Positions 2,911-45,560 of a stretch of 45,560 nt of DNA are shown here, in pieces. Below the pieces are notes generated by a model. The model worked only from the letters and a program-made list of their open reading frames with translations, did not search any database and had not been told where the DNA came from. The position numbers and the translations under genes are program-made. Position 1 is the stretch's first letter. The number at the start of each line of letters is the position of its first letter. Origin of the DNA: a virus; IMG/VR virus record IMGVR_UViG_3300025128_000004, positions 1 through 45,560 of that record; one strand, written 5' to 3'.

Positions 2911-2921
2911 ATCTAAGCTCC

Positions 2922-5875: not shown

Positions 5876-7664
5876 TATTCATCTGGGGCTGCTGGTTATT
5901 TTGGGCGGCTAGCATTTGCTGCATCATCTGGTTTTGACCGCGATCCGTTGCTCCCGGCCTGCTCACACGCTCATACGTTCTTGTAGTGTCAGATGGCATC
6001 TGTGATCCGGGCTTTTTACCAAACGAACCTTGGCCCGTTAAAGGCTGTCCATCTTGGTTCACGATAATATCCATCAACTCCGGGATGTTGTTGTATTCTG
6101 ACAGAAGAGAGATGATTCGGTCCATATCAAACATCTTGCCGTTTTCTTGCAGCATTTGAATCATGTTGGGGTTGTTGATTACTTCCAGCACAAATTGAGC
6201 CCTTTGCTCAGGCGTAGAGTGCTGCATAGAGTAGGGGCGAACGTCAAAATTTAACTCATGCCAAATCTCTCCCCGCGACTCAGCGGCGATGTTAAACGGC
6301 ATTTGAATCTTATCCGACACATGCACTACGTCGTCGAAGTCTTGTACGGGGTCGTTCCACCAGTAATACAAAAGGCTTTTACATACGCTGGAAACCGCTT
6401 CAAAGGTTTCGTTACGCATATCATCGACTCTGGTATTGGCTTGACCCAACGCCATTCGGTCCTGACCAACGGTTTCTGACTGTGGCCCCAACCCACCCAA
6501 CGCTGACAGGTTGCCACCAATCTTGTCCATAATGTTGTCCAACGACATCCCGTAGGACATCAACTGTTGGTCAATTCCTGGGTTCTCAAACACCTTTACG
6601 GAGTTGGGGTCGTTCATTTGAACCATATCCCCGTCACCTGCTTCTCGTTGGCGGCGAGCGTCTTCATCGTGACCAGACTGAAACCCGAACACCGTCTTTT
6701 GCCTAAGAGCCTTACGGGCGTTTTTGTTAAGAATCTGGTTGGCTAGTTCGTGTACGTCCCTCCAATGTGCCACGGGAGGTACGGGCATACTTTGACCGAT
6801 AGGCCAATCAAAGCCTAAGAAGTGGTAGGGACCGGCAAAACACGGGCCCTGCTTTGGCCCCTTCCATTTGGCAATGTTTAGGGGCTCGTTAGAATGGGCT
6901 TTGTCGTCAGATGAATCACCGTCTGCGGCAAAGGTTACAATCTCGTTCGTGTCGGGAAGGTAAATCTCCCATATCTCCACTTCCTCTCGAATGCTTTCTG
7001 AGTTCTGGTTGTAGCTTCCAGAAATCGTGCCAATCTTAGGATCACCCCCTTCCGTGGTTCGTGACTCAACGAGTTCAGCCAAGGACTTTCTTGCGTCTTC
7101 GTTCCAATCAGGAAACAATTGGGCTTGGTCAAGAGCCATTCGATATTTGTGGCCCATGAATGAACAATGCTCCCACGGCTTTCCTTTGGATTGAAGGTCT
7201 TGCACCCAATCGTCCAAAAGGACCGGCTCTACAAACGTCCGTCCTACAGGTATGTGCATTTCTTCGTTTGCGTCAGTGGTGTAGTGCATAACGTCGGTCT
7301 GAGCCCAACCTACCTTGAGGATGCCCATACCAAACATTCCTGCGTTTACCCATTCCCTGACCTTAGAGCCAAAGTCAATTTCTTTGAGCATCGCGTTTGC
7401 AAGGCGCTGTGCCCTGGCTGCGATGTGCTTTAGCTCTTGATTGTTTGTAGTAACCGTGACCTGCGGCATACGAGAAGTAAGCATCCTTCCGTAGATTTGA
7501 ACCGCAAGCTGGATGTAGTTCATTGGAACGCGGTCAGAAGTTCCGTCGTCCGTGTAGTGCCTGCCGACATACTGCCGTACCGCTTCGTAGGTATTTTTGC
7601 GGTAGGGCTGTAGCTTCCGGTAGTTCTGAGAGATGACTGCTCGGAGTTTAGGTATTGTTACCAC
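5856..7664 (-). CDS. Portal protein
   Basis: A 602-residue protein that would form the twelve-fold portal ring for DNA entry and exit. Evidence is its size, position directly after the large terminase, and features usual in podovirus portals: an N-terminal helical region with VPMNYIQLAVQIYGRMLTSR, a WVNAGMFGMGILKVGW segment leading into the wing, a long central helix-rich domain with PPVAHWRDVHELANQILNK, and a Gln/Asn/Met-rich C-terminal tail. The GTG start at 7664 has an AGGAG site six bases upstream. It overlaps the terminase gene by seven bases. Confidence 0.85.
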   Translation of the reverse strand: MVTIPKLRAVISQNYRKLQPYRKNTYEAVRQYVGRHYTDDGTSDRVPMNYIQLAVQIYGRMLTSRMPQVTVTTNNQELKHIAARAQRLANAMLKEIDFGSKVREWVNAGMFGMGILKVGWAQTDVMHYTTDANEEMHIPVGRTFVEPVLLDDWVQDLQSKGKPWEHCSFMGHKYRMALDQAQLFPDWNEDARKSLAELVESRTTEGGDPKIGTISGSYNQNSESIREEVEIWEIYLPDTNEIVTFAADGDSSDDKAHSNEPLNIAKWKGPKQGPCFAGPYHFLGFDWPIGQSMPVPPVAHWRDVHELANQILNKNARKALRQKTVFGFQSGHDEDARRQREAGDGDMVQMNDPNSVKVFENPGIDQQLMSYGMSLDNIMDKIGGNLSALGGLGPQSETVGQDRMALGQANTRVDDMRNETFEAVSSVCKSLLYYWWNDPVQDFDDVVHVSDKIQMPFNIAAESRGEIWHELNFDVRPYSMQHSTPEQRAQFVLEVINNPNMIQMLQENGKMFDMDRIISLLSEYNNIPELMDIIVNQDGQPLTGQGSFGKKPGSQMPSDTTRTYERVSRPGATDRGQNQMMQQMLAAQNNQQPQMNIGSPQP

Positions 7665-27174: not shown

Positions 27175-30100
27175 TCAATCTGGCTTTAGGTAGACCCTGT
27201 ACGCACTAAACGGGTCATCCCCAGGTGAACCGCTTTCTATTTTTTTCCGTACTCCGCGGGCTTTTGCAAGAATATGTCGAGCGATTCTTTGCCTCTCTTT
27301 GTTGTTGGTGGCTGTGTAATATTCTTCAAACAGTTTCTTAAACTCTTTGTAAGACTTCTTTCTGTCGTGGCCGTTCTTCACCGCCCACTCGGTAATAAAA
27401 ACAACGTCCCTAGCGCTCGTACCCCCACCGTCGCGGGTAATTCCAATCAGGAGCCCGATGCTTCTTCCCCAATTATTAAGGCTACCTGGCTCCCCGAGGT
27501 CTGATACTTCTACAACGGCACGGCCAGTGCTTCCAAAAAGACCAACTAAAAGATGATCCCAATTCCTAGCATCAACAGCTTGAAGGCTAAAAGTCTGCAA
27601 AAACTTTCCAACATTTGACCCCCTTTCCGTACCTTTCCTTATTCTTACATCTTGCTTTTTTTCGTAGGGGGGGATGGTTGGCTTCCCCTTAAACAAGTCA
27701 TAGTTCATCCTGACTTCAAGGAAACTTACAAACGGACCCGCTATAGCTTTTATGTCTACTGGCGAAAACGACTTAAGAAAACTTGTCCTAAAACCCTCGA
27801 ACCCCTGTTTGCGTGTTGCACCGCCAGAAATAACGTCGATTGCTCTAGTTACTCCCGAAGCGAGAACACCAAACTCGTAAGGCTTGGGTATTGCAAGCCA
27901 AGTATTGGGGCCGAGTCGTATGTTGTAATAAAAATCTTTCCTCCAGGCCGGAAGCTGCCTGTATTCGTCCCGTTCCTCTTCACTTCCAGTCATATTCCAG
28001 GCGTAGACCATTAACTCGGGAACAACGCTGTACTTGAGCCAGGCAACAAGAAGGCCATTTGGATTCCTGTGCAGTTGCTTGACCGCGCGTCTAAGCGCTT
28101 GAACCGCCGCGTTAGTGAACGGGACCATTTGGTTTACATATTTCATTACCGATCCGCTAACGGCAAAATCCAACAAATCTCTTGCTTCGTAGGCTGCGTA
28201 AAGTATTGCATCGCTTTCGCTTAATCCAGCGTCAAGCGCTTTCTTTTTGGCAACTCTAAACTCGGCTAATCTGTTTAGCTTTTCGGATCCCTCGGCTAAT
28301 GATTTGTATTTTTCCCACCCTTTAGAAATCTGTTCCCGCGTCATTACCGTGACGTTTTTATCTTTAATTAGCTCTCGCGTGGCCCTGTGCATGTGCGCAA
28401 CGTAATCAACGCGACTTTTCAGGTAGTGCCCAAACTGCCCGCCTCCACCAAGCATGAACTCAGACGCCTCCGCAGTCTTTCCCAACGCTTGAAATGTGTG
28501 GCGAAGCTGACTTCCTACATTAGTTAGGTGCGGTCGAGTAAACGTATCTCGAATAATATTCCGAAACATAAACGCCGGAAAGTAGGTGATAGTGTTGCGT
28601 AGTATGCGGGGCAGAATTGTAAAGAGTACCGGTAGCGAGGCGTTGTTGCCTATCCCGTCAAGGGCTTTTCTGATTTCGGGGTGCATTCTCCAATACGTTT
28701 CTTTTCCGTTGATATAAATCTTAACCGCGTTGCTGTCTTCCTTCTCAACTCGGTGCATAATCTCTGCTAAATTTAGAGCAGGGCCTTCGTACATTCTTCG
28801 CGGCTTGCTTTCGGCAAGCTCTGCCATCTGCTGCAGGGCGTAGTTTCTTTGTGCGTCATGCTGAGCAATTTGACCTATCTGGAGCATATTTGCGTAAATA
28901 TTGCCTATTGGCTCAGTGCTTCCAAAGAACTTCTTGATAACGCTTTTAGTTGTAGTTACGCCTGTTGACCCCATTGCCTTAGTTGGGTCTGCAGTTATCA
29001 AATTGTTTGAGTCTACAATCCTCCGCATATTTACATAAAACTGGTTATCTGCTTTTATTTCGTTGTATTGCTCCCTGGATATTCGCCCAAAATGCAACAA
29101 TGGTTGCAGAATCATAGCGTCAGCGAACGCGCGATACCTTTCTGCTGCGTCCCGTAACCGAGAAACATCCTCCGGGGGAAGGGCGTTAATTTCAGCGAGG
29201 GTTCTTTTGGAAACTCGCAAGTCACCTTCTAGCCCAGCACCCGACCCAATCATGTGTTGTCGCTGCTTGTTGTTTGCTTTAATTATTCTTTCAGTTTTTT
29301 TACCAATGGGTAAATCGCCCAGATTTATCCAGATAGTTTCAAGGCCAGCGAAATACTTGCCGTCGCCGTACTTGATGCTATTGATTTCACCTTCCGCAAG
29401 TGCAACAGCTTTCATATAAAGATTTAATTCTTCCTTTAGCTCTTGGGGAATATCGAGGCCATCTTCTTTGCGCGCCTTAACGGTTGATTCTAATTCCGCA
29501 ATAATCAAACCGATTTCTTCCAGCAGTTTGAAAAACGCTTTTTCATCTATGACCTCGCTTCGCTCAATGTGCCTTTCTGCAATCATAAACGCATGTAGAA
29601 GCCGCACATCTCGTTTAAGTGTGTCTGCAGATGTCATGTCTAAAGGTGCAAATAAATATTGAAGATTCCCAACGCCTGATGCGGAACCAGGCCGAACCAC
29701 CCCGTCTCCTGCAAGCCACGCCTTCCAATCGATAGGCCCGTGAAGAAGCTGGTCTTCCCACTGAGTCATTTGGCCTTGGAGATTTCTAATAAGTATCTCT
29801 GGGTCTTTGAGTGGGTTTATGAAATCACCGTGTCTTGCCTTGAGCACATCAATCCCGTGCATCGCGGGATCAAGGCTATCGCCAAACCACGACTGGAGCT
29901 TGCTGTAAAAGCCAGGGTTGAATGCGTGTCCCGTGTCACGCCAAATGCGCGTCATGATTTCTTGGGTGAATGCGGCAACATTATTAAGCCCCAAGGTAAT
30001 AAGGCTCTCTCCGTCGCCGCCAAATCCTTCAAACTTGACGTTTGAGATTGTTTTATTTATCCCGGACAAACCGCCATGCACCCGAATCTTGTCGCCAAAC

Positions 30101-33100
30101 TCGCGGAGTTTTTTAAGAGCCTTTGGTGCGCGTTTCTGGAGCCTGGATAGCATAAACTTTGAAAACACCGGGGCTTGTTTAAGTGTAGCGTCTGGGTTCA
30201 CTAGGTACGCTCTAATCCACTCCGCTATAGCTTCGCCTGCAACGTAACGGTGCTCTGACCTTGGGCCTGTTTCTTCAATTGAACCATGCTGCGCAAACCC
30301 CATCATTTCATCCAGCATCGCTTTGGCTTCGTCGGTGTACTCAGTGACTTCTATTTCAACTTGTTGGGTTGTGCCATCAGCGTTTGTGATTTTGGATGGG
30401 TATTTTTGTACTACAAGAAGGTCGGCTCCAATGGAAGCAGCGTCGTCTACAAAATGGCCTAATTCATGGGCGGCTGTATCAAGGTCGTTCCCGTACTTGA
30501 TAACAATGCGGCCCGTGGCGGGGCTGTATGTGCCAAGCGTTTGCTTAGGGAGTTTTCCTTTAATTGGCTGGCGACCGAGCTTTGCTGAAAAGATTATGTC
30601 AGCCGGAGCTTCGGGGGTTTTGCCTTCGGGCAACGGAAGGGGATCAACGGGTATCCTTGAGACAGGGGTTGTTTGTGGCCGCGATTGAAGCGGAGCAGAC
30701 TCGGCTTCATCTGGAGCGGTTCGCATGGGCGGCGTAGCTTCGCGGGAAGGCTTGCCGGATGTCTGCGTTTTTGCGGGAGACAACTTAGCCTTTGCGATAA
30801 TATCAGACTGCGTTTTTTTCTGGTCCCACTGAATCCCGTCAATAATCTCTTGCTTACGAGCTTCCCCCTGAGAAACTTTATACCCCTGTGCTTTGAGGAC
30901 TTTTTTAATAACCTCATTCTTGTCGGTTATTTTTTTGATTCCCAAGTCAGGCAAGTTGATTCCAATTGACTGCCCTACTGAAAGTTCGCCTGCAGAAAGA
31001 TTGAAAATCCCTGGAGAAAGTCGATAAGTATAGTGATCCCGAAACACAAGTTTTTTGTTTTCGTCAACAATGAAAATCGGGTTGTAAGCAATCTCTGGTA
31101 CTTCTTTAACAAGCTCCTTGATTACCTTTAGGCCTTTTGTCTTAACCAAATCACCGGAATCTAAAACCATATCTGCTGTGACGCCAGGATCAGGCACCTT
31201 AACAGAATCAAGAAATTTCTGGCGTAGGTTATCGGGAAGCAGGCTTAAATCAGAAGCGTCCCACGCCGAACGAAGTTCTTTCAGCGTCTTCGTGGCAGCA
31301 CCGTCTTTACTGAGTTCTGCCCATGATTTTGGAACCTTGACGCCAGAATCTTGAATCATCTGGTAAAGTTGCCGAAGGTTGACTTGGGAAGCAGTTGCCG
31401 CCGAAAGACCGCTAGATAGATGCGTAAGATTCCATTGGCTGTCTTTATGCTCTTTCCATTGAGCATCGGTCATTCGTTTTCTGTCAACCAGTACAGGTTT
31501 GCCGTCTATGTCAACAATCCCACGGGTAATAGCCCATGTGTCATCAAGGACGAGCGCATCTACTTTGACGTTCTGAGATTTGCCTCCTATTTCTATGGGG
31601 ATTGAAACAGTCTGCTTAGTTCCTTTTGGAGAACGCTTGCGTAAATCTTTCCAAACTCGATCATCCTCTCGTTCTTTTTTTTGCTCTGCACGCTTTTTCT
31701 GAGCAGCTTTAATTTCGCGTTGTTCCGCTTTTTCTCCGGCTGTGGGTTTGGGAGTGGCTGGCTTTCTTGTAGGCGGGCCAACAATCCCTTGATTCCTAAA
31801 CCCTGTTGCAATCCCCTCCTTGAACTTAGCCCCCGGGTACAAAGTCTCTAAGGCTTTTTCTTTCTGGGCTTTGTCTTTACCTATTTTGTCAGCAACTTTT
31901 ACGTCTGGGTCGCTGGCCGAAAAGGCAACATTGGTTCTCCCTGACCCGTGGCGTTCGTTTAACGCACCATCTTTTGTTATGGTCCCAACTGTCGTTCCTT
32001 TATCTATTCCACCCGCCCAATTCCCAGCCTCGGATTCACCGTATAACACAAAAGCGTGTTGTCTCCTGGCCTGCTTTTCTTCTGGAGTTGTCTCCATGAT
32101 TTCGTCGTATTTTTTAACGATGTCTTTTAGCTTGGCTCCCGGTTGTTTTGAAAAGTTGTATAACTTTTTTTGCTGTTCGGGTGTCATTGTGCGGGGCTTA
32201 AAGACAGGGCGAGACGCATCTTTTCTTGCCCCCGGCCCTACCTCAAACGTGCTTGGATCAGCAGGTACACTAGCCCCTTTAGCAGCCTCAGTGGGGGTGG
32301 GGGACTCGGTGGGGGCTGTTCCAGTAGTGGTCTTGCCTTGCCGTTGCTTGGCTATTGCAATTTGCTTTTTTAACTTAGCTATATATCCTGACTGGTCCTT
32401 GCTTAAAGCTATGTCGCCTTCCGCAATAGTTTGTTCATGGTCGCGTTGTATTTCTTGTAATGCTGCTAGGAGCTTTCCAGCTCTTTCAATCGTTAGAGTG
32501 CCATTAAATTCTTCCTCTAATATCAACCCGTCTTCCGATACACCATCTTTGTCAAAATTCTGTTCGTCGTACTTCGGTGCTTCGGGGGTGGGTTGGGGAG
32601 AAGGCTCTGAATCGGCTTTAGAAACAGCGTCCAAGATTCGATCAATTATGCCAGGCTTATTGCCTACCGTTTTAACCCCAAGTTCTCTGGCAATATCCTT
32701 TAACTCGTTCTTGGTTCGAGCCTCAAGCTGCTCCCTTGTTTCTGTAAATTCGGCGCGTCGCTTGAGTTGATTTTCTTTTTCGGCTTTTTTGAGGTCGCGT
32801 TGTTTTTTCCTTGAGTCTAAAGCTGATTGGAAAAAAGCCTGTGGGCGAATTTTAATGGCAGCCGTTAGTAGGTTTTTTTGCGCAGCGGTTAGCTCCGATC
32901 CTTCATTTTGGGCTATGGCTAAATCAGCAGCCTCTCTTATCCACGTTCCACCCGTATCTTTTGCCATTGCAATTATATGTGCTACGTCATTGTCAATCAT
33001 ATCGCTGACAACGCCGCGTATCTTGTCTATCTGGCCGCTTTTGACCTTAACGCCGGTGATGCTTGTGTGCTTAACGGTTGGGGGTACACTACCTGGAGGC

Positions 33101-36100
33101 CGAGCAAAAGTCTCCTCTTTAGTAGTTACGTCCGTTTCAATACCTACAGACTTGTAAAAATCTGCGGCGTTTTTCGGGGACGTTCCACCCATAAAGTGAA
33201 ACAGAAAACTTAACGCTTTTTTTTCGCTAACTTCAGAGGGCTGCTTACCATCTAAGTCTCCATCAATTACACGCTGGCGAAGTGCTTCATGGCCTTCGCC
33301 GCCCTTTTTAACAAAGCTGTCTGGGATTGCTGCCGAATCCTCTGAAATCTGGGTGGCGTTTTCTATGGCCGGAATGAGCGATTCTTTCTGCATCTTCCCA
33401 GCACCCTTAATGCCAAGCTCTTTAGCTATCCCTTTTAGCTCGCTAACATTCATATCGCCGAGCTTTGGATCGCCCTTAGTGGGAGTGGTGGGAATGGGAA
33501 TCTTGCCCGCCTTCATTGCGCGGAGCTTCTCAACTTGTTCTTTTCTGGGCAATCCTCGCACGGCTTCTGCCGCTGCCCTGGCGTCTGCTTCGTTATCAAA
33601 TTCTACAGCTGTTTCTGATTTTGTTTTTGCGTTTGGTTCCCACCAAACTATGACACGCCACGAATTATCTTTTCTTGTGGTTTCAACAGGATTTCCGCTG
33701 GCGTCCCGCTTTAACTTGGGCCGAACACCTGTAACTTCTAAAGAATTGTAAACGTCCCCGCCTTCCCTGGGTGGCGTTCCTTCTAGTACAGTTGTGTCCC
33801 TGGTTCCACCATAATCATCTATTCCAGAAACTTCTCCTGGTGTTGGAGTAGGCTCTGCGGGGGCCCGCTGTTTAGCTATGCGGATTTGTTTTTCTAATCT
33901 AGCTATCTTGTCCCGAGTCCCGGCTGGAGCGGACCAAGGCCTTTCTCTTAATATTTGTATTAAGCCTTCTACTTCCTGTTCTGCTGCTTCAATAGAAATA
34001 GAAGGTGCATTAGCTTCCGACTCAAGATAATCAAAGTCTCTTATCCTTCCGTCTTCGGTTACGCCGTCTTCGTCGTACTGCGGTGCCTCAGTGGGAGTGG
34101 GCTGGGGTGTAGGCTCTGTGGGGGCCCCCGTAACATCGCCTCCCAACGCAGTTATTCGCCGCTTGGCTATTTCAATTGCTTTTTTTAGCGTTTCTTTTAC
34201 TTTGTCGACGTCAATAGGGTACTCTCTGGGAATAGTCCTTTCTGATATCGCCTTTAATCTCGCTTCGGCTTGCCTGATATTTAGAGCAATTGGTTTTCCC
34301 GGCCATGTAGGGTCTTTTATTTTCCCGTATTCAGTCACGCCATCTTTGTCAAAACCATCTTTGTCAAAACCAAACCTATCGTATTGCGGCTCTTCTTTAG
34401 CTGTTGGTGCTTCGGTTTCTGGGGTTGGTTGAGCGGTGTCTTTTTCGCCAAACCCTTCTAGGTTAATAGAGGAGACGATCCCAACTCCCTTTATTTGTAC
34501 TCTCGCTCTCTGCTCTGCTTCCCGTTGGGTGGCCGCTTGGACGCGAATGACACTAGTTTCGCCGTTATGCACAACGGTAACGGCGTGCCAGCGAAGGGTT
34601 CCACGAAACTCCCGTAACGAATTAGCCATTGGTCGGAGAGAATCCGCAAGCCTTTGTCTCATTGGGCCACTTAGCTTGGCCCCAGGGAGTATCTTAGCCA
34701 GCCGCGTGCGTGTTGGTGAATCTACGAACGCAAGCACACCTTCTCGGTTAGACATCATCAACGCTTGATTTATCTCAAACGACGTTTTGCCGAAATCGGT
34801 TAGCTCTTTTATCGCTTGGTTTTTTATTTTCCGATTAAATTCAAACTGATTGATTGTTGCGCCGGTCGCACTTATGGTTTCCCCAAACCCAGCACCGACA
34901 ACGGCACCAACAATTGCTTGCGATACAGCCTCAGCGATTGCTCCCTTAGACATTCTTTTGCGGTCAACGAAATAGCCTGCAGCAATTGATTCTCCAATTG
35001 CAGTAAGTGATTCCTGCCACACCTCGCTTACTATAGCAGCCGGAGCAAGAGTGATAGACTTAAATGCTTGGCGAGCAGCAGACCTGGTAACACTAGCGAC
35101 TGGCCCCTTTGCCGCCAAAACGCCACCAGGCTTAAAATGCCGTAAAATACCTTCGGCACCAGGAATAACTTTGCCCAGGCGCGCACCAAGCATCATTGGC
35201 GCAACTTCTGCTGCCGCAAGAAGGAGTCCGTAAGCAACAGAATTTTCCTGGCTCCCTCCCTCTTTGCGTAATTCTAAGTATCCGTCCCCGAATGACGTAG
35301 CACCAGCAAGTGCAGTTACCCCACCCATGCTTGACATCCACGGAGCAAACTGTCCCGTAATACCAGCAGCTACAAGAAACGACAAAGCGTTTCGCGTGGG
35401 CGCAGACATCTTTGCAATGTTGGGTGACAGGTGTGATTTTTCTAACTCGTTGACTGCGAGGTTGCGGTTGTCTAGTAGGGCTTTCCACCGCAGCCCCGTT
35501 GTTTCAAATCCAGGTACGCCTATTGCGGCGCCAACCCCGAAAACTCCGGTGCCTATCATGCCGACTGCTTCTTCACCAACAGTCAAAGACCACAACGCCA
35601 GCTTAGTTAAGTTGCTGCTCTCGGGAAGATTTAATATGTCTGAATAGTACCACGCTAAATCCTTGCTTCTTTGCGCCTGGAGCTTTTGCGTGGCGAGGAG
35701 GTATTCTTTTTTGGATAGCTTGTTGGCTTCACCAATGACCCGAAATATCTCGGACTCCGAGGCATTTTCTTTTTTTAATGAATCATACAAATGCCCAATG
35801 TGCTGGGCTTTAGCTTGCTGCCATCCGGTCTCTATGCGGAAATTTTCGTATGTTCCTTCTACCTTTTCGAGTTCTCCCCAAAACCCACGCTGCTCCAAAT
35901 AATCTTTAAGGTCTTCGTAAGACTCTGTGATTTTTTTATTTTGATCCGCTGCTTTGTTTGAAACTTTCCGTCGCTCTGTTTCTGGAACAAGATGCGGAAT
36001 ATAGTGGCGATAAGGCCCTTGCCATATAAGTTTGCCCAAGACCTCCGACTTCCTGGCGTTGTCTAGCAGCGACTCCGTGGTGGTCCACTCTTGCCCTTGA

Positions 36101-38025
36101 TATAAGTCATTTCTTCGGAGATTTTCTTCTGCAGCTTTAAGGTCTATTTGAAAAGTGTTTACTTCAACTTGGGCTGCTGCCGAGGCTTTGTAGGCGCGGT
36201 CTATCAATACCTCTATTTTTCCATCGTCTAGGTCTGGGTGATGTTGTTTTAAGAGACTTTTTAAGAACTGCCGCTTCTGTTCTTCTGGCAATTCCCAGAG
36301 ATTAACAGAGGAACCGTCTTGAAAAACAATTGGTTTCTTCTGATAGATGTACTCCCACACTAATTGTCGAGACTGGACCACCGGGTTTTTTGATTGATGC
36401 TCAAACCATTTCCTGCGGTTTTCTGCGTGCTCTTTTATGTACTGCTCTTTTAGGCTGGGGCCTGGAAAAGGGAGCTTTTCCGGACCCTCCGGCATTAGCA
36501 TTCCCAACGGAACAAGTGCTTGCCAGGTTTCCGATATCGCATTTGCGGTAGTTTGGCCCCAACCCAAAAGGTCTAGCGTTAAGGATTCGCTTAAAGGGAG
36601 TTCTTCGCTCCAGTCTTCGGGTGGCCTTCCGCTATGATCAGGGTTAAATTCCCTATGCCCTGGCCGGAGAGATTCAACTTGTCGGGGACGGTCTACCTTC
36701 TTTTCTTCCGCGTCACCCCAATCCTCATCGGATGTTTTTTTCATGTGTGGGAGTATTACGTCGCGTTCGTCACCCGTATCCCACTTAAACTCCCTGGGGG
36801 TTCTTTCTCCTGGGTCTTCAGCGCCCATTTGCGCAAGCCCCATAAGGGAAGCGCTTGTTGGATCAAACCCAAGCATTTCCTCGGCACCAGCAGCCAAAGT
36901 ATTTGGATCAATTAATGCGTCTTGGCGTCTCTGCTCATGTCTCTCTTGCAACCGGCGTTCTTTTTCTTCGTGCGTTTGCTGCGCCTGTAGGCGTTGCCGC
37001 TCTAGGTACTGCCTCGCGTCCGGCCTTGGTCGCCCAGATGCCTTGGCACCAGACCTTTCCCACTCTTTATCGAGTGACGTTTGCAGAACGTCCAGGCGTG
37101 TTCTTTGATCAACTCGTCTCCGAATCAACTCCGTAAAAGCATCCCCCTCGATTCGGTCATCCCAGGCAGCGCCTTTAACTAGAGGGTTTTGCGTGTACCA
37201 GTTCTTAAAGCCTTCGTACAAGGGCTCGTTGTTAAGCTCTGGCAGCTTTTCCGGAGAATACGGGCCGGGAAGAATGTTTCCGTGGCTGTCCAGAAGGCCA
37301 TCTACTAGCTTGATTGCATCCGGGCTATTTAATATCGCGTCTCGGCGCTCTTTTTTGAATCGCTTTCGTTCCTCAGACCGCTGCCTGCGGATTTGCTGCT
37401 CTTGTGTTTCTGCTGCGTCTGCCTGAGCTTGCTGCTGCTCTCCCAAATGTTGATTTCTTTGGCCCCACGCACCTCCGCGGGGATCAATCTCCATGAACCC
37501 TTGGGGTTCTTTTTGCCACGCGATACGAGGACGCTCTGGCACCTCATCTCTACTTCTTGGCTCAGGCCCAAACTTTTGGACAAAACCTTCCTCAGAGCCC
37601 CCGTCGGCTTTCCATTTTTCTAGCTTTGACCTGTAACCTCGAACACGTTGCATCCAAACAGTGTGAGCCCTTTCCCACTCTTTGTACTCTTTCGTCTCCC
37701 TAACCTTTTTTTCTTGCTCTTCCTTCCACTTGTGCTTTTCTCTTTCAGATTGCCTAAGACGCTCGTTTTGTTCTTCGTTAAGAAGCAGATTTTCAAACTG
37801 CATCTTTTCTTCGTCGTAAATGACCGGCTGTTGCACCTCTATGTCGGGGACTCCAGCACCCGCCCCAGAGATGGGAGACACCAAATCAGAAAGAGTTGGG
37901 TCAAAGAAATTAGGAGCATTTGGTGCTACGTTGTGGCCCTGATCTTGCAAATGAGCCGACATATCCTGAAACGAAGACGGGACGTATACTTCTTGCCCCT
38001 GAGCATTTATTACAAAACGTCCCAT
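27175..38025 (-). CDS. Giant polyvalent virion protein with zincin motif, 3616 aa
   Basis: By far the largest gene, 24% of the genome. ATG 38025 has AGGG nine bases upstream; a TTG at 38052 is possible but overlaps the prior gene. Approximate layout: Gln/Glu/Arg-rich coiled coils (1-800); hydrophobic Ala/Gly helices (806-1055); three related acidic YD..DKDGVTEDG repeats (about 1210, 1313, 1816) in Pro/Thr linkers; two SAP-like blocks (about 1521-1560, 1766-1800); HELGH (2520-2524) with EAIAE (2598-2602), a zinc-peptidase site; and a long helical C-terminus with FYSKLQ, FRNIIRD and PFTNAAVQALRR, recalling large polyvalent-protein domains. Position after the nozzle and ejection genes suggests it is injected with DNA. 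Confidence 0.9.
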   Translation of the reverse strand: MGRFVINAQGQEVYVPSSFQDMSAHLQDQGHNVAPNAPNFFDPTLSDLVSPISGAGAGVPDIEVQQPVIYDEEKMQFENLLLNEEQNERLRQSEREKHKWKEEQEKKVRETKEYKEWERAHTVWMQRVRGYRSKLEKWKADGGSEEGFVQKFGPEPRSRDEVPERPRIAWQKEPQGFMEIDPRGGAWGQRNQHLGEQQQAQADAAETQEQQIRRQRSEERKRFKKERRDAILNSPDAIKLVDGLLDSHGNILPGPYSPEKLPELNNEPLYEGFKNWYTQNPLVKGAAWDDRIEGDAFTELIRRRVDQRTRLDVLQTSLDKEWERSGAKASGRPRPDARQYLERQRLQAQQTHEEKERRLQERHEQRRQDALIDPNTLAAGAEEMLGFDPTSASLMGLAQMGAEDPGERTPREFKWDTGDERDVILPHMKKTSDEDWGDAEEKKVDRPRQVESLRPGHREFNPDHSGRPPEDWSEELPLSESLTLDLLGWGQTTANAISETWQALVPLGMLMPEGPEKLPFPGPSLKEQYIKEHAENRRKWFEHQSKNPVVQSRQLVWEYIYQKKPIVFQDGSSVNLWELPEEQKRQFLKSLLKQHHPDLDDGKIEVLIDRAYKASAAAQVEVNTFQIDLKAAEENLRRNDLYQGQEWTTTESLLDNARKSEVLGKLIWQGPYRHYIPHLVPETERRKVSNKAADQNKKITESYEDLKDYLEQRGFWGELEKVEGTYENFRIETGWQQAKAQHIGHLYDSLKKENASESEIFRVIGEANKLSKKEYLLATQKLQAQRSKDLAWYYSDILNLPESSNLTKLALWSLTVGEEAVGMIGTGVFGVGAAIGVPGFETTGLRWKALLDNRNLAVNELEKSHLSPNIAKMSAPTRNALSFLVAAGITGQFAPWMSSMGGVTALAGATSFGDGYLELRKEGGSQENSVAYGLLLAAAEVAPMMLGARLGKVIPGAEGILRHFKPGGVLAAKGPVASVTRSAARQAFKSITLAPAAIVSEVWQESLTAIGESIAAGYFVDRKRMSKGAIAEAVSQAIVGAVVGAGFGETISATGATINQFEFNRKIKNQAIKELTDFGKTSFEINQALMMSNREGVLAFVDSPTRTRLAKILPGAKLSGPMRQRLADSLRPMANSLREFRGTLRWHAVTVVHNGETSVIRVQAATQREAEQRARVQIKGVGIVSSINLEGFGEKDTAQPTPETEAPTAKEEPQYDRFGFDKDGFDKDGVTEYGKIKDPTWPGKPIALNIRQAEARLKAISERTIPREYPIDVDKVKETLKKAIEIAKRRITALGGDVTGAPTEPTPQPTPTEAPQYDEDGVTEDGRIRDFDYLESEANAPSISIEAAEQEVEGLIQILRERPWSAPAGTRDKIARLEKQIRIAKQRAPAEPTPTPGEVSGIDDYGGTRDTTVLEGTPPREGGDVYNSLEVTGVRPKLKRDASGNPVETTRKDNSWRVIVWWEPNAKTKSETAVEFDNEADARAAAEAVRGLPRKEQVEKLRAMKAGKIPIPTTPTKGDPKLGDMNVSELKGIAKELGIKGAGKMQKESLIPAIENATQISEDSAAIPDSFVKKGGEGHEALRQRVIDGDLDGKQPSEVSEKKALSFLFHFMGGTSPKNAADFYKSVGIETDVTTKEETFARPPGSVPPTVKHTSITGVKVKSGQIDKIRGVVSDMIDNDVAHIIAMAKDTGGTWIREAADLAIAQNEGSELTAAQKNLLTAAIKIRPQAFFQSALDSRKKQRDLKKAEKENQLKRRAEFTETREQLEARTKNELKDIARELGVKTVGNKPGIIDRILDAVSKADSEPSPQPTPEAPKYDEQNFDKDGVSEDGLILEEEFNGTLTIERAGKLLAALQEIQRDHEQTIAEGDIALSKDQSGYIAKLKKQIAIAKQRQGKTTTGTAPTESPTPTEAAKGASVPADPSTFEVGPGARKDASRPVFKPRTMTPEQQKKLYNFSKQPGAKLKDIVKKYDEIMETTPEEKQARRQHAFVLYGESEAGNWAGGIDKGTTVGTITKDGALNERHGSGRTNVAFSASDPDVKVADKIGKDKAQKEKALETLYPGAKFKEGIATGFRNQGIVGPPTRKPATPKPTAGEKAEQREIKAAQKKRAEQKKEREDDRVWKDLRKRSPKGTKQTVSIPIEIGGKSQNVKVDALVLDDTWAITRGIVDIDGKPVLVDRKRMTDAQWKEHKDSQWNLTHLSSGLSAATASQVNLRQLYQMIQDSGVKVPKSWAELSKDGAATKTLKELRSAWDASDLSLLPDNLRQKFLDSVKVPDPGVTADMVLDSGDLVKTKGLKVIKELVKEVPEIAYNPIFIVDENKKLVFRDHYTYRLSPGIFNLSAGELSVGQSIGINLPDLGIKKITDKNEVIKKVLKAQGYKVSQGEARKQEIIDGIQWDQKKTQSDIIAKAKLSPAKTQTSGKPSREATPPMRTAPDEAESAPLQSRPQTTPVSRIPVDPLPLPEGKTPEAPADIIFSAKLGRQPIKGKLPKQTLGTYSPATGRIVIKYGNDLDTAAHELGHFVDDAASIGADLLVVQKYPSKITNADGTTQQVEIEVTEYTDEAKAMLDEMMGFAQHGSIEETGPRSEHRYVAGEAIAEWIRAYLVNPDATLKQAPVFSKFMLSRLQKRAPKALKKLREFGDKIRVHGGLSGINKTISNVKFEGFGGDGESLITLGLNNVAAFTQEIMTRIWRDTGHAFNPGFYSKLQSWFGDSLDPAMHGIDVLKARHGDFINPLKDPEILIRNLQGQMTQWEDQLLHGPIDWKAWLAGDGVVRPGSASGVGNLQYLFAPLDMTSADTLKRDVRLLHAFMIAERHIERSEVIDEKAFFKLLEEIGLIIAELESTVKARKEDGLDIPQELKEELNLYMKAVALAEGEINSIKYGDGKYFAGLETIWINLGDLPIGKKTERIIKANNKQRQHMIGSGAGLEGDLRVSKRTLAEINALPPEDVSRLRDAAERYRAFADAMILQPLLHFGRISREQYNEIKADNQFYVNMRRIVDSNNLITADPTKAMGSTGVTTTKSVIKKFFGSTEPIGNIYANMLQIGQIAQHDAQRNYALQQMAELAESKPRRMYEGPALNLAEIMHRVEKEDSNAVKIYINGKETYWRMHPEIRKALDGIGNNASLPVLFTILPRILRNTITYFPAFMFRNIIRDTFTRPHLTNVGSQLRHTFQALGKTAEASEFMLGGGGQFGHYLKSRVDYVAHMHRATRELIKDKNVTVMTREQISKGWEKYKSLAEGSEKLNRLAEFRVAKKKALDAGLSESDAILYAAYEARDLLDFAVSGSVMKYVNQMVPFTNAAVQALRRAVKQLHRNPNGLLVAWLKYSVVPELMVYAWNMTGSEEERDEYRQLPAWRKDFYYNIRLGPNTWLAIPKPYEFGVLASGVTRAIDVISGGATRKQGFEGFRTSFLKSFSPVDIKAIAGPFVSFLEVRMNYDLFKGKPTIPPYEKKQDVRIRKGTERGSNVGKFLQTFSLQAVDARNWDHLLVGLFGSTGRAVVEVSDLGEPGSLNNWGRSIGLLIGITRDGGGTSARDVVFITEWAVKNGHDRKKSYKEFKKLFEEYYTATNNKERQRIARHILAKARGVRKKIESGSPGDDPFSAYRVYLKPD

Positions 38026-38035
38026 TAAACTAGCC

Positions 38036-39289
38036 CTACGCAGGTAACTCAAACATCCCCTGATCCATATCTAGGGGATTACCGCTTACGTCTTCCATTA
38101 CGTCAGTTTGAGCAATCATTTCCTGCTCTGGCTGGTTTTCAACTCGATAATTCGGGTCGTAAAACTCGTCCATCTCTTCCGGTTCATGCTCTAAAGAATC
38201 GGCTCTTCGCTGGCGTTCATCTATGTCCCCTCGAGGAACCGTGTTCGGGTCGTCGCCCTGATACCAAGCCTCGTCACGGGCTTGGTTCTTCATGTCTAAA
38301 TAGTCGGGGTCACTTGAGCTAGGAGCCGTGTACTGGCTTTCAATTTTAACACGCTCCCTGGCCTCTTCTTCTGGAGGAAGGTTAGCGTTTCCAAACTCCG
38401 CATCGAACTGCTGGTTTACCCAATTTTTCTTATGCTCCCGCATCAGCCTGGCGAAGTTTTGGTCCTCGTCGTGCTGCGCTTTTTCTCGCTGTTCCCCTCG
38501 CTGCTCGTTTCGGCGGTTCCACCGGTCTTTTTGACGCTCTCGGGAGGTTTGCTTGTCTGCTTGATCGAGCTTTCTATCATCTTGATCGGCTTTTCTATCC
38601 CCGTTTCTTCGCAGCCATGCGTTGTGATTTTTCTTTTCGTCTAAATCATCTTGCTGGCGATCCTCGGAAACTCGCTTATTGTAATTGTCAACGCCATCAA
38701 CGATTTTTTCAGCCTTGCCTTCTGGGGTAAGCTGCCACCTGTCAAATATCGGCTGTCCGTCTCGCGTCTTAACTCCGGTATCAATGTCGTAGGTTTTTGG
38801 CTGGTTTGGCGCGGCGTCAATTTCCCACAGCCTTCCATAAAGCTGGTTCATGTTCCATTCGCGTGTGTACTCGTCAACCTCTGGGTTGTTTTTCCATTGC
38901 TCGATTTCTTGGAGTATCTGCTTTTGCTCTTGTTCGGCTTCCTGCTGAGCTAGCTGCGATTTATGGTTTTCCAGTGCTATCTTGTTTTGAAACTCTTGAG
39001 CCTCTAAGAACCGCTGCTGCTGAAACTTCTGGTACTGTATTACTGACCTTCTTTGGTCTGAATGGTATTCTCGCTGTCCTCTAGCGTATTCTGCCTGTTG
39101 CCCAGGAAGGTATTCTTCGTGAAGATAACCACCACCGGAAGAAGGTTGAAACGCACCCCCGTCACGGGCTTGAACGTAATCAAACCACTCTTCCTGGTTT
39201 GCAAGCATCTGGTTTCTTTGAAACATGGCTGCGGCAGCAGACCGACCAATGTTTTGAACCATATCACTTTGTAGTCTTGTTTCAGGCAA
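38036..39289 (-). CDS. Probable internal virion (ejection) protein, 417 aa
   Basis: A TTG start at 39289 is favoured because GGAAGAG precedes it; ATG 39262 has no ribosome site. The protein is Gln/Arg/Glu/Asp-rich, almost entirely charged coiled coil (about 90-270), with an acidic C-terminus. No transmembrane segment. Together with its two upstream neighbours and the giant gene it has the position of T7 gp14-gp16, the core proteins ejected at infection. Role is inferred from order and composition. Confidence 0.65.
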   Translation of the reverse strand: MPETRLQSDMVQNIGRSAAAAMFQRNQMLANQEEWFDYVQARDGGAFQPSSGGGYLHEEYLPGQQAEYARGQREYHSDQRRSVIQYQKFQQQRFLEAQEFQNKIALENHKSQLAQQEAEQEQKQILQEIEQWKNNPEVDEYTREWNMNQLYGRLWEIDAAPNQPKTYDIDTGVKTRDGQPIFDRWQLTPEGKAEKIVDGVDNYNKRVSEDRQQDDLDEKKNHNAWLRRNGDRKADQDDRKLDQADKQTSRERQKDRWNRRNEQRGEQREKAQHDEDQNFARLMREHKKNWVNQQFDAEFGNANLPPEEEARERVKIESQYTAPSSSDPDYLDMKNQARDEAWYQGDDPNTVPRGDIDERQRRADSLEHEPEEMDEFYDPNYRVENQPEQEMIAQTDVMEDVSGNPLDMDQGMFELPA

Positions 39290-40145
39290 TGTTCACTCTT
39301 CCTTCTCCGCGTCTTATATCTTGCTGATTTTGGTCAGTTTGGCGTCGTCGTCGCAATTCTTGGGCTCTCTGGTACCAACTTCTTAATCCGCTCATCATTC
39401 CTCCAGCCTGATTTACAGTTTGCCCACCCCTTCGTGCGGCCGCGAGGCGTTCGTGGAACCTGGGACTCATGTACCCATAGCCACCAAGCCGAATTTTTGT
39501 AAGATGCGGATTCTTGACTCCCCATTGGTACCTCCCAGACTGCCCTTGGAGGTATTTTCGTCTTCTGTCGATTAGGTTCCTTGTCCCCGATGATAAATTA
39601 TGTGTAAATCCACCAAAGTAATTTCTTTTTATATTAGTTCCTAGGTCGCGGTGACTTGTTTTCGTATACCTTCTGTGTCCCGTTCCCGTGTAGGGGTTGA
39701 CGTAATTTTTTGCGTACCCGCGACGAGCTAGGCCTCGTTGCCTTCGGCCTTCTGCCTGTGCCGCTTTGTATTCCCTGCGACTACCAAAGTCCTTCCGGGT
39801 TCTACCGGCCATAAAACTTTTTTGCGCATCCCTTCCGGCGTTAATGAGACCTTTCCTGTAATGCCCTAACTGGTGGCTTGTCCTAAAACTCATAGCTCTT
39901 TGTGGTCGCTTGGAACCGGCAAGCATGTGCTGGTACACTCGGCCCGCAGACCCAGCAATCCCTGAATACCTTGGGTTGCCTCCCCGTATTCCGTACCCCG
40001 TAGGCTGTGTTCCGAAATATCTATGCGCAAACGTTCGGCGGTTCCTTGCGCCCGCGTAAAGAAACGGGTGAGGTCTTCCTGCTCGCGGGTGCCTTCGGCC
40101 ACCAACGGAGCGAGGATACATCATTCGGCCTTGAAACATTCTCAT
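39282..40145 (-). CDS. Extremely basic Arg/Gly/Tyr-rich protein, 287 aa
   Basis: A 287-residue protein with dense Arg, Gly, Tyr, His and Lys and very few acidic residues, and almost no hydrophobic core (for example RRHPRAGRPHPF and GQSGRYQWGVKNPHL). Such sequence resembles DNA- or RNA-condensing proteins more than a folded enzyme. It sits among presumed ejection proteins, so it could pack against DNA in the capsid or travel into the cell. CGGAG lies 11 bases before the ATG. No family recognised. Confidence 0.7.
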   Translation of the reverse strand: MRMFQGRMMYPRSVGGRRHPRAGRPHPFLYAGARNRRTFAHRYFGTQPTGYGIRGGNPRYSGIAGSAGRVYQHMLAGSKRPQRAMSFRTSHQLGHYRKGLINAGRDAQKSFMAGRTRKDFGSRREYKAAQAEGRRQRGLARRGYAKNYVNPYTGTGHRRYTKTSHRDLGTNIKRNYFGGFTHNLSSGTRNLIDRRRKYLQGQSGRYQWGVKNPHLTKIRLGGYGYMSPRFHERLAAARRGGQTVNQAGGMMSGLRSWYQRAQELRRRRQTDQNQQDIRRGEGRVNIA

Positions 40146-41833: not shown

Positions 41834-42660
41834 CAATCACACCCACAGGCTTCTACAATTACCCACAAGCTCCCGCAAGTATCTTTTGCTACCAAAAGGA
41901 TAGAGGCCACTTCTATTTCTTGGCACGAAATATTAAACACAACATCGCAAAAGTTTGGGTCTATTTTCTCAAACTCACCGTCTTCGTCATCGTCAATAGT
42001 TTTATGAACCCTAACTTTCGCGTCCAGCCCAGACACAATTTCCTCGGACATTTCTTGAGCCATGTCCCATTCGCCGCTTTCAATATAACCAGCAAGAAGC
42101 TCTTGGCTTTCTTCGTTAAAGTGTTCTGAGCTCATTTGAAACTCTTGTAGAGCAACTATTCCGGTGCCGGGAGTTCCCGTGTCTGACTGATACGCACTTA
42201 TTTTAGATAAGGCTCTTGCCGACACGATTGACGGCTGCATAAACCCATGCGGGTCTTCGTTGCACGTTGGAGGTTCTGCGGGCTGCACACACTGACCAAG
42301 AGCGTCGTCAAACACGGTTCCGGGAGGGCATTGGCCTTCGCCGCCTTCGCCTCCGCCGGGTTCCTCAAATCCGTCAAGAGGATCAAATCCCTGCGGCCCG
42401 CCCCCGCCAACCGGGACGCCAGGGAAATCAGCAAAATCTGGTATTGGCCCATCAGGAACATTCGGAAAATTTCCTATGTCTGGAGGAAAACTTAGTCCTT
42501 CTAGTGGTGGAAAATCTCCCAACTCAGGAAGGGCTACGTCCCCAAACAAGTCCATCAAGTTGTCTACTAAGTTATTGAGTGCAGACCTAGTAGACGGGTC
42601 AACATTGTCCAAACACAAGCTGTCCTTGAGTGCTTGGATTTTGTCTTTGCGTAAAGCCAT
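41833..42660 (-). CDS. Structural protein with Pro/Gly collagen-like segment, 275 aa
   Basis: N-terminal helix (1-40), then an acidic Pro/Gly/Phe-rich region (45-110), then a short Cys-bounded block CPPGTVFDDALGQCV that resembles a small disulphide loop of chitin-binding or EGF-like domains, then an alpha/beta domain to the end (VVFNISCQEIEVASILLVAKD). TAATG junction with the nozzle-like gene. Probably a minor tail component; exact role unknown. Confidence 0.6.
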   Translation of the reverse strand: MALRKDKIQALKDSLCLDNVDPSTRSALNNLVDNLMDLFGDVALPELGDFPPLEGLSFPPDIGNFPNVPDGPIPDFADFPGVPVGGGGPQGFDPLDGFEEPGGGEGGEGQCPPGTVFDDALGQCVQPAEPPTCNEDPHGFMQPSIVSARALSKISAYQSDTGTPGTGIVALQEFQMSSEHFNEESQELLAGYIESGEWDMAQEMSEEIVSGLDAKVRVHKTIDDDEDGEFEKIDPNFCDVVFNISCQEIEVASILLVAKDTCGSLWVIVEACGCD

Positions 42661-45119
42661 TACGTCCCTGCGCTTGTTATCTTAACCGTAGCAAACGATC
42701 CCCTAGCCTTGGGATGGGCTCGGTATTGAAGTCCGGTTCCTGCATATCCTTTCCACGTTCCCGACTCCCTTGCAGCGGCGTCTACTGCATCTTCGGCAGT
42801 CTGGCCTACATGAACGGACCAAGTGACATCGCCACTGTTCTGCCCCAATGCTGCACATATTGAACTTAACTTTCCCTCAAACATTCCCGTACTATCGCCC
42901 AATGAAAAAGGGCCAAATACAATATGAGAACTGATAGCGTTGCTTCCATCGTCTTCGTCCAGAGAGGGTTTAAGGTGCCGAAGGTATCCATCGTGAGAAC
43001 CAAACACCACGGGAGATTCGTTGGAGGTGAAGTCCCTTCTTGCGTGACACGATGAAGCTACATGGTCAGCATGATAAGACACGGGCCAAAACGCTGCAGT
43101 TATCTTGTCTCCTTCTAGTCGGGTTTTAATGTCAATAAACCAATGGGAGGTGCTCGACCCGTCGTGGATAAACAAATGCACCCCTCGGTAACGAACGTCA
43201 TACGCCATTGTTACCGTCTTGCTGGAGGTGTCGATGTTAATCAACTCCTCTGGAAGTAGCTCTCTCGATACACTTGTAGGAGCAGTGCCACACCCAGGAG
43301 GCATGACGTACAAACCATCTCGGCTCATAAACATCATGTACCCGCCCGCGACAAGACACCAAGACTTAGGGCCAAGAATGCCAATCTGGTCGTCGAGTCG
43401 TCGGGCCGTCCCACCTAGCGCTGGATCGCCAGTCATAATCCACAAAGACGACGTACACCCGATTACAAGACAATTATGGTGATAGGACACAAGAGCAACA
43501 ATCGGCTCGCCAATCTGACCTGCTGACGTAAGGCTACCGACGATTGACCTTTGTGCGTCATCGGCTGAGTAATCCCAATCACTTGTGTCGCCTTGGCGGG
43601 ACATCTTAAAGTTCTGCGGGTTACTTGCTTCTACGCATACAAGACGGTTTCGCCACGCTGCTATGGTTGTGCAGTTGGTGGGGACCGACCCTTTTAACCA
43701 GTCCTGGAAAAGGGGGTACATCTTGTTGTTTTCAGGATCATAGACCTTGATGGTCCGAGCTATTCGGTACTTTATACCCGTCACGTTTTCTGCGTTGGGC
43801 GAGGTAGCAAGATTGATGGTAGTGGTAGATACGCTAGCAATTTCAAACGCACCCGTTACGGTTCGTCCCGTTTTCCCTCTAGTAGAGCGAGATACCCGTA
43901 CGTCAGTGTTTATACCCTTAGTTGTTTCAGCGACGGTTAATAGCTTAGTCCCGCCCGTTAATCCCGAAGAATCAACTGCCATGATTGCCATATCTCGGCT
44001 ACCAAGGCTTCCTGAAAACGTAATAATTACGGCTCCCGCACTTAAATTAGCAGCACCGCTTTCAGACGCTTCTCCAGATGGAACAATTGACAATAACTCT
44101 ATTGCTGCTGAAATTGCTGACCCCGCAGCATTCCACGCAATAGGAGCAGTCGTTTCTACCTGTCCATCGACGATGACCTTTAGGTTAAACGTCCCGCCCG
44201 TAGCACCTTGGGTAAGGGTCTGGACTTCGTTGGTTGCTGCGCTAGTTAGCTCGTTATCTGCGGCAGTTATTAAGGGGACACGCTGACCACCAAGGTCGTT
44301 TTGAAATGTTACCGTAACGGGAGTTCCAGGTAAGTCGCCCCCTCCGACAAGTATATTGTTATTCCCAGAAGAATCCTTCCCAATAGACGAGAGTTTAAGC
44401 AACGCTGCTTGTATGGTTGCTATATCAGCATTATGCGCTAAATCTGTAGTACGCGAGCCATTGAAGGTTAAGTAGTACGTCCCACCTGTCGGAGTGCCGC
44501 CCATAGTTATGGTTTGAATCTCGTTTGTTCCCGTTCCGCGAGAGAGAATAACTACACAGTGGTCGTTAGCATTAACGCCAAGAGTTCCAAAGTCTTTGGG
44601 AGTAGAGTCTGCTGCGCTTGTTACAGAAGTAAAAGCTGTGCCGCTAGCTATTTGAGCCAATTCCCCAGAATCAACCAGCGTGTCGCTACCGTCGCCGTTA
44701 TCAGCGATGTATAACTTCTGGCGGAGGGGGGCTGAGACTAACAAGCGGTCACTTGCTAGTGTGGGGAGAGTGCCCGACGAACCATCGACACCGTTGGCTA
44801 CCTTTGTCATGGTGCTAGCGTTAGACTGATACCACAGTTCACCGCCAGCAGACGCTACAAGGATGGTTTCTCTTTCTCCGTCTTTAATAAACTGCACCGT
44901 GTCCACAAGACGAACACGGGCAGACGAACCAGAGATTTGCTGGCTAAACGTTTTGCCTAATCCCGGCCTACTGCCACCACGCTCTCGCCCTTCCGAGCGG
45001 TCATCAGTCCAGACGTTGAGCGCATCCGGTGTGGAGTACGGAGCTTGCTGTTCGTAGGAACCCCGTTTGTCCAAACCCTTGGCGGGCCAAGACAACGATA
45101 GCTGACGTTGTTTTGCCAT
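42660..45119 (-). CDS. Probable tail nozzle / tubular protein B-like, 819 aa
   Basis: A beta-propeller-like protein with repeated AWRNRLVCVEAS, HHNCLVIGCTSSLWIMTG and GYMMFMSRDGLYVMPPG strands, as in podovirus nozzle proteins (T7 gp12 or P22 gp10 position). Residues about 199-295 and 296-400 are two related inserted beta domains, each opening with NE(I/V)QT(I/L)T and containing a Gly/Thr-rich core, a repeat common in phage surface proteins. It follows the adaptor block, completing the short tail. Confidence 0.75.
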   Translation of the reverse strand: MAKQRQLSLSWPAKGLDKRGSYEQQAPYSTPDALNVWTDDRSEGRERGGSRPGLGKTFSQQISGSSARVRLVDTVQFIKDGERETILVASAGGELWYQSNASTMTKVANGVDGSSGTLPTLASDRLLVSAPLRQKLYIADNGDGSDTLVDSGELAQIASGTAFTSVTSAADSTPKDFGTLGVNANDHCVVILSRGTGTNEIQTITMGGTPTGGTYYLTFNGSRTTDLAHNADIATIQAALLKLSSIGKDSSGNNNILVGGGDLPGTPVTVTFQNDLGGQRVPLITAADNELTSAATNEVQTLTQGATGGTFNLKVIVDGQVETTAPIAWNAAGSAISAAIELLSIVPSGEASESGAANLSAGAVIITFSGSLGSRDMAIMAVDSSGLTGGTKLLTVAETTKGINTDVRVSRSTRGKTGRTVTGAFEIASVSTTTINLATSPNAENVTGIKYRIARTIKVYDPENNKMYPLFQDWLKGSVPTNCTTIAAWRNRLVCVEASNPQNFKMSRQGDTSDWDYSADDAQRSIVGSLTSAGQIGEPIVALVSYHHNCLVIGCTSSLWIMTGDPALGGTARRLDDQIGILGPKSWCLVAGGYMMFMSRDGLYVMPPGCGTAPTSVSRELLPEELINIDTSSKTVTMAYDVRYRGVHLFIHDGSSTSHWFIDIKTRLEGDKITAAFWPVSYHADHVASSCHARRDFTSNESPVVFGSHDGYLRHLKPSLDEDDGSNAISSHIVFGPFSLGDSTGMFEGKLSSICAALGQNSGDVTWSVHVGQTAEDAVDAAARESGTWKGYAGTGLQYRAHPKARGSFATVKITSAGT

Positions 45120-45128
45120 AACCCATAG

Positions 45129-45485
45129 TTAGCTAAGTGCTGCGGTGTCGTTCGCCGTAATGATCCACTTGTACCCACTGGTTCCGTTGGGAATGCTTGC
45201 AAGCACTACCGTGTCACCAGCGTCACCAAACGTAATCACCGTGTTTCCTGCGGTATTGCAGGCAGTTGCGGCTGTGACAGCACAATCGCCACCATCCGTT
45301 TTCAGGGTCAAGATGATGACCTGACCCGACTTAACGGGGTCTTTCAGGGAACGAGCTTCCGACGCGGCGGTTACCATTTCCACAACCGTCCAGTTGCCTT
45401 CTGCGGTAATGCTACCACCAGCACCGGGATCGGCTTGGTCGAAATCCGCTTTCAATAAATCCGCTGTAATTCTGTGACCGCTCAC
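45129..45485 (-). CDS. Small beta-rich structural protein, 118 aa
   Basis: A GTG start at 45485 has GGAGA seven bases upstream. The protein is beta-rich and Ala/Thr/Gly-rich (NWTVVEMVTAASEAR; VIILTLKTDGGDCAV; YKWIITAND). It lies between the nozzle-like gene and, across the closed junction, the 109-aa protein at 62-391. Likely a head-tail or decoration component; function not recognised. Its first 52 bases are the repeated segment 1-52. Confidence 0.75.
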   Translation of the reverse strand: MSGHRITADLLKADFDQADPGAGGSITAEGNWTVVEMVTAASEARSLKDPVKSGQVIILTLKTDGGDCAVTAATACNTAGNTVITFGDAGDTVVLASIPNGTSGYKWIITANDTAALS

Positions 45486-45560
45486 AATAGTCTCCTAATT
45501 AAAGGTAAGTTTGACGCCAGCAACGTCATCTGATGCTGGCAATAGTTTTAACCACATAAC
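45434..45560. repeat. 127-bp direct terminal repeat, right copy
   Basis: This copy is exactly identical to bases 1-127. Joining the copies restores a continuous run of structural genes across the contig ends, with normal junctions and an intact ribosome site, supporting closure. Confidence 0.97.
45495..45560 (-). CDS. 3' end of the 109-aa structural gene (repeat copy)
   Basis: A repeat copy of the last 66 bases of the gene complete at 62-391 (stop codon included, start absent). It should be ignored when counting genes. Confidence 0.85.
   Translation of the reverse strand, partial: VMWLKLLPASDDVAGVKLTFN

Follow-up and report, generated by a model that had tools for sequence, protein, structure and literature searches.

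The 45,560-nucleotide viral record analysed here over its whole length (IMG/VR IMGVR_UViG_3300025128_000004; hereafter the window) encodes a 3616-residue polyvalent protein whose payload has been exchanged reciprocally with those of its relatives, in that two of them (L101 and L102) share its payload and not its rear half, and a third (L004) shares its rear half and not its payload. The protein belongs to the known LPD38 class of polyvalent proteins, and is not of an undescribed kind because that class was described in 2017; very likely it is an ejected protein in which a frame carries cargo. A preliminary description of this DNA had already picked out the giant gene and its main motifs, to which we add a measured contrast between a rear half of near-constant length and a variable front, the placing of the reciprocal exchange near residue 2420, and a weak resemblance in sequence to the C-terminal domain of the virion RNA polymerase (vRNAP) of phage N4.

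The gene runs from 38025 to 27175 on the minus strand, a strand that the preliminary description had not given, and consists of 3616 codons plus a stop without internal stops. Its ATG at 38025 is backed by L004 (also L018; IMG/VR 3300025168_010309, 3905 aa), where the frame opens two codons before the shared start MGRxVxNAQGQEVYVPS. Because an exact 127-bp direct repeat lies at the two window ends (1-127 and 45434-45560), the window is a closed, complete genome of 45,433 bp, of which the giant gene takes up 23.9%, close to the 24% first estimated. The late genes 11716 to 62 run on across the window ends into 45485 to 27175, and since the operon crosses the genome ends in this way, the giant gene is its last member. 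It had been said to follow probable ejection genes; the position at the end of the late operon stands, but neither Pfam nor PHROGs gave a convincing match to an ejection protein for the 417-aa and 287-aa genes upstream of it, which match no family and are candidate ejection genes by position only. The features of the giant gene and its neighbours are as follows, with residue numbers for parts of the giant protein:

27175..38025, minus strand: giant polyvalent protein gene, 3616 aa (open frame; start backed by L004)
38036..39289, minus strand: upstream gene, 417 aa, kept as a neighbour (the gene directly before the homologue in L004 is 64% identical)
39282..40145, minus strand: upstream gene, 287 aa, Arg-rich, kept as a neighbour (counterpart in L004 about 46% identical)
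34456..38025, minus strand: constant N-terminal region, residues 1-1190 (52% identical to and collinear with L004)
34882..35571, minus strand: three hydrophobic segments, residues 819-840, 929-948 and 1028-1048 (hydropathy scan)
34321..34386, minus strand: spacer repeat 1, residues 1214-1235
34036..34083, minus strand: spacer repeat 2, residues 1315-1330
33355..33462, minus strand: Rho_N / SAP-like nucleic-acid-binding motif, residues 1522-1557 (Pfam PF07498, E=2.7e-7, above cut-off)
32626..32727, minus strand: SAP motif, the best match, residues 1767-1800 (Pfam PF02037, E=1.4e-10, above cut-off)
32521..32586, minus strand: spacer repeat 3, residues 1814-1835
30766..31710, minus strand: exchangeable payload module, residues about 2106-2420 (55% identical in L101/L102; absent from L004)
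29941..30675, minus strand: zincin-like metallopeptidase domain, residues 2451-2695 (alignments, AlphaFold model, profile against PDB)
30454..30468, minus strand: HELGH active-site motif, residues 2520-2524 (conserved 37/37)
30220..30234, minus strand: E-A-I-A-E, residues 2598-2602, probable third zinc ligand helix (E2598, A2601 and E2602 conserved 37/37)
27178..29940, minus strand: helical C-terminal region, residues 2696-3616 (phage-record and BFVD matches)
27484..27969, minus strand: LPD38 domain, residues 3353-3514 (Pfam PF18857, E=1.9e-19)

Elsewhere in the genome, the 819-residue structural protein at 42660-45119 has phage-record matches only to residues ~195-322, to actinobacterial phage proteins of which some are named minor tail protein; a 602-residue gene downstream of the terminase (5856-7664), in portal position, has no match in 50,697 phage records, and the remaining virion genes are very divergent. 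No close DNA relatives were found among named phages. As the structural genes of this phage, which has never been cultured, are so divergent, the term podovirus is taken over from its relatives. Matches that bear on the host fall in metagenome bins of Elusimicrobia, Phycisphaeraceae and Synergistaceae, which may themselves hold misbinned viral contigs.

The layout of the chain agrees in most respects with what had been noticed from the sequence. The giant polyvalent nature of the protein is borne out by several unrelated domains in one chain (SAP/Rho_N, zincin and LPD38), the proposed hydrophobic helices appear as the three hydrophobic stretches listed above, and both SAP-like blocks are recognised by Pfam. 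By composition, residues 1-1190 are charged and Q-rich, then hydrophobic, and a search of 50,697 phage records with the N-terminal 2439 residues gave no match. The three repeat spacers share the motif D..GV[ST]E.G, starting at residues 1226, 1318 and 1825; as a marker these repeats were rejected, their sole match outside being a generic GYDKDGYD repeat protein (L002). The C-terminal segments likened to polyvalent-protein domains include a true LPD38, scoring 70.9 bits against a cut-off of 27, and phrog_9854 of the PHROGs collection matches residues 2971-3461. This region is partly matched by 48 phage records, and a model of its 946 residues (pLDDT 78.6, pTM 0.75) retrieves 64 predicted viral structures from BFVD at E<=1e-3 (best 8.8e-23, TM 0.66), many annotated LPD38 and others RelA/SpoT, lysozyme-like or methylase; Foldseek of the same model against the PDB gave no significant match. 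A lytic transglycosylase domain of the N-terminal, T7 gp16 type was not seen in Pfam at E<=1, and an RNA polymerase domain found no match in Pfam, PHROGs or NCBIfam.

The exchange of payload emerges from the comparison of three relatives. Between the window protein and L004, identity is 52% over residues 1-1190 and 62% over residues 2421-3616, with a rearranged middle in which residues 2106-2420 of the window protein have no counterpart. Residues 2117-2420 are 55% identical in L101 (IMG/VR 3300035199_000441) and L102 (3300034980_000470, 2203 aa from its ATG), where they stand directly in front of the zincin, whereas the zincin and LPD38 halves of these two proteins are only about 25% identical to those of the window protein. 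Near residue 2420, identity to L101/L102 falls from 68-80% to a level of about 15-25%, and similarity to L004 begins near the same residue; from this sharp drop and this coincident start it follows that the protein is a mosaic joined just before the zincin. The module itself (2106-2420) has no match in the PDB, PHROGs or named phages, and none in plasmids.

The same division into a fixed rear and a variable front extends through the family. Across 34 proteins (33 relatives and the window protein), the length from the zincin to the C-terminus is 651-1206 residues, the lowest value belonging to a contig-truncated member, with a coefficient of variation (CV) of 0.10; the length in front of the zincin is 422-2802 residues, with a CV of 0.53. 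A C-terminal LPD38-type domain occurs in the same frame in 64 of the 66 loci that our collection scan described below returned, the contig or frame ending before it in L073 and L078. Recognised payload domains are varied, namely a PBECR1 RNase in L025, ddrB-ParB in L047, an acetyltransferase in L102, and an LT-type lysozyme and a methylase in the JC1 protein, and even members as short as about 1400 aa, which have little payload, contain the zincin. In the LPD38 proteins of Bacillus, Pelagibacter and PTXU04 phages, similarity starts at the helices behind the zincin and the zincin is absent; with several such relatives, the frame evidently does not need it. In L004, two stretches bordered by PTP-rich linkers (residues about 1490-1640 and 2230-2560) look by eye like ADP-ribosyltransferase and ParB-like payloads, a resemblance that no library match confirmed.

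The zincin domain was characterised through alignments, as a Pfam search with the window slice alone gave no match and the relation became visible only through them. A first alignment of the window protein with those of BA3, vB_ValP_FGH, VvAW1 and L004 has HE..H..D and E..AE among its invariant residues, and was used to scan 2.9 million viral contigs (IMG/VR), yielding 66 loci with relatives; two other alignments, A2 and A5, contained too much divergence to serve in such scans. HExxH or HExxxH lies within the matched frame in 65 of the 66. In an alignment of 37 rows, with 17-66% identity to the window protein, H2520, E2521, H2524, E2598 and E2602 are identical in every row, a conservation that is in part built in, AHE or E.xAE having belonged to the scan patterns and only rows with HExxH/HExxxH having been retained. 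Since the two histidines, the glutamate between them and two downstream glutamates are kept throughout, the HELGH that the preliminary description had called a zincin site is not a chance occurrence. The one exception among the 66, L040, reads HAAGH (residues about 950-1110), a natural loss of the catalytic glutamate, and its close kin L031 and L034 read HEAGH. The branches L021-L029 and L042-L069 have a motif with an extra residue (HELAGH) or HETGHH, and HELAGH fits the HEXXXH form noted by Iyer et al. (PMC5512222).

A metallopeptidase fold had been predicted around residues 2400-2700, and modelling did not refute it: the AlphaFold model is confident (mean pLDDT 88), and its short helix, short strands, HELGH helix and later Glu helix follow the element order of the zincin core of Iyer et al. 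(PMC5512222). The best PDB matches of the zincin profile are M34-type zincins (E=0.003). The agreement in element order was not matched in the PDB, where Foldseek returned nothing significant and the superpositions were long and poor; for this reason the fold is backed by sequence and model, not by superposition. The domain is probably an active metalloenzyme, and zinc binding and proteolysis would be its expected properties.

It had been suggested that an injected zinc peptidase of this kind would be an undescribed system, a claim that falls to earlier work. Iyer et al. (PMC5512222) described zincin and LPD38 together in large phage proteins, found zincin peptidases to be the commonest domain of polyvalent proteins and LPD38 to be phage-specific, and proposed both injection and self-processing. 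The window protein resembles theirs in its LPD38 above cut-off, its HExxH zincin with a Glu in the next helix, its disparate domains joined by spacers, its structural-gene neighbourhood and, as in their phage clade, an Asp at H+3 (here D2527). It differs from one of their zincin clades, in that the conserved strand-2 histidine is not seen, and from the class as described in having no recognised enzyme besides the zincin and a payload module that matches no family searched; its zincin region is only 17-36% identical to all members except L004. L004 shares the 417-aa upstream gene and differs in its rearranged middle, extra stretches and lack of the 2117-2420 module, whereas L101/L102 differ in their zincin motif, HEVGHH, and acetyltransferase payload. 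The BA3-like Vibrio/Thalassomonas phages BA3, vB_ValP_FGH and VvAW1 have, as here, a zincin followed by an LPD38-type C-terminus in a gene that is last or nearly last of the structural operon, and differ in HEMAH or HELAH with a shorter insert and in 21-28% zincin identity; some of their proteins are annotated methylase or DarB-like antirestriction protein.

Delivery into the host is suggested by analogy. The 48 phage records with relatives of the C-terminal region include short-tailed phages, and in podoviruses such as BA3, HTVC034P and PTXU04 the gene stands at or near the end of the structural operon. When CsCl-purified JC1 virions were examined by mass spectrometry, 51 unique peptides came from gp69 (4515 aa), which has LPD38 at residues 4195-4401 (PMC9144972). 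In P1 DarB, a polyvalent protein of another kind, the first 30 residues direct the chain to the head (PMC9024508). By comparison with these, the window protein would be packaged and would enter the cell with the DNA.

The preliminary description had set the protein apart from N4 vRNAP as having a protease-type site instead of a polymerase. This contrast does not hold: N4 vRNAP consists of a membrane-type N-terminal part, the polymerase, an HExxH domain (2124-2375) and a helical part (2376-3500) whose fold was reported as new in 2025 (PMC12633501, preprint), and because it has both a polymerase and a zincin behind it, the window protein is not a case of protease in place of polymerase. The layout of N4 gp50 (3500 aa) is like that of the window protein, from the membrane-type N-terminus through payload and HExxH zincin to the large helical C-terminus, save that the window protein has no RNA polymerase, and each of the 14 N4-like proteins examined has HExxH. 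With enlarged profiles, the zincins aligned in register in hhalign (single-comparison P=0.005) and so, separately, did the LPD38 core and the C-terminal end of N4 (P=0.006; its score of 38.7 exceeded 31.7, the highest value reached by 60 block shuffles), whereas smaller profiles gave P=0.047-0.048 only for both parts, and the best hhalign probability for window against N4 was only 6-7%. Pfam found no LPD38 in N4-like proteins, and Foldseek of the C-terminal model against the PDB did not return N4. Given this spread between small and enlarged profiles, a distant common origin with the C-terminal region of N4 vRNAP stays suggestive. In the PDB, residues 417-548 of 9sfn_G, a 1337-aa 'internal virion protein' for which no paper was found in the literature, are matched by the N4-like zincin profile at E=6.6e-10. 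The broader proposal that one ancient delivery frame of zincin and helical C-terminus is common to ejected giants including N4-like vRNAPs, with recombination just before the zincin swapping payloads that the zincin then frees in the host, is one that we regard as doubtful.

On balance, we favour an LPD38-type polyvalent protein that is packaged in the head and ejected into the cell with the DNA, with a fixed frame, swappable cargo and a zincin that cuts its own chain. The N-terminal 1190 residues with their hydrophobic segments would probably help in packaging and in contacting the cell envelope; the middle (about 1190-2420) would be payload, with SAP/Rho_N DNA/RNA-binding motifs and other modules separated by Pro/Asp-rich spacers; and the last ~1100 residues would form the constant frame, made up of the zincin-like domain and, behind it, the helical LPD38 region. 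The zincin would most likely cut the chain at its linkers, in the capsid or after entry, and so free the payload. Self-processing is favoured by the conserved site, by the place of the zincin between payload and frame with linkers in front of it, and by the proposal of Iyer et al. It is opposed by the zincin-less LPD38 relatives, the HAAGH of L040 and the zincin of short, payload-poor members, and by N4 vRNAP, a zincin-bearing protein that is packaged unprocessed (PMC5512222) and that stayed undegraded in recombinant form. In the literature consulted, no protein with the zincin-LPD38 frame is shown to be cleaved. That its own chain is the main zincin substrate is accordingly a tentative, if plausible, part of the favoured reading.

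Two alternatives keep the ejected protein and give the zincin another role. That the domain is mainly structural or regulatory, acting in folding, ejection or payload restraint and not as a working protease, seems somewhat unlikely: the unprocessed HExxH domain of N4 vRNAP, the C-terminal domain of that protein, which inhibits transcription and so restrains the polymerase, and the natural HAAGH variant all speak for it, and zinc binding alone could account for the conserved ligands, but a purely structural role leaves unexplained why the histidines, the glutamate between them and the downstream Glu are identical down to 17% identity. The same constancy of the active site in 37 of 37 relatives, and the presence of the zincin in short members with little payload to release, would also suit an effector that acts early in infection by cleaving a host protein, an alternative listed by Iyer et al. 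(PMC5512222). We consider this unlikely, as the zincin lies in the constant rear half whereas the recognised effectors of the relatives lie in the exchangeable part, and a host-specific effector would be less expected to persist in phages as diverse as these.

The protein might instead be an ordinary tail or tape-measure-like component that is not sent into the cell, since hydrophobic helices and great length also occur in tape-measure proteins and the tail type of the window phage comes from its relatives, not from direct knowledge. This is very improbable, however: in short-tailed phages the homologues stand at or near the end of the structural operon, effector-type payloads such as those of the relatives make no sense outside the cell, and short-tailed phages need no tape measure.

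Giant ejected proteins are a natural route for sending enzymes into bacteria together with DNA, and the role of the zinc-peptidase domain within them has been a standing question since at least 2017. Two handles on it are provided here, namely a payload boundary that reciprocal comparison of relatives places near residue 2420, and a set of relatives that either have or lack the zincin (several can be cultivated), which together with the natural HAxxH variant is available for comparison. If the weak link to the N4 C-terminal region is true, results obtained with N4 would apply to a far wider range of phages.
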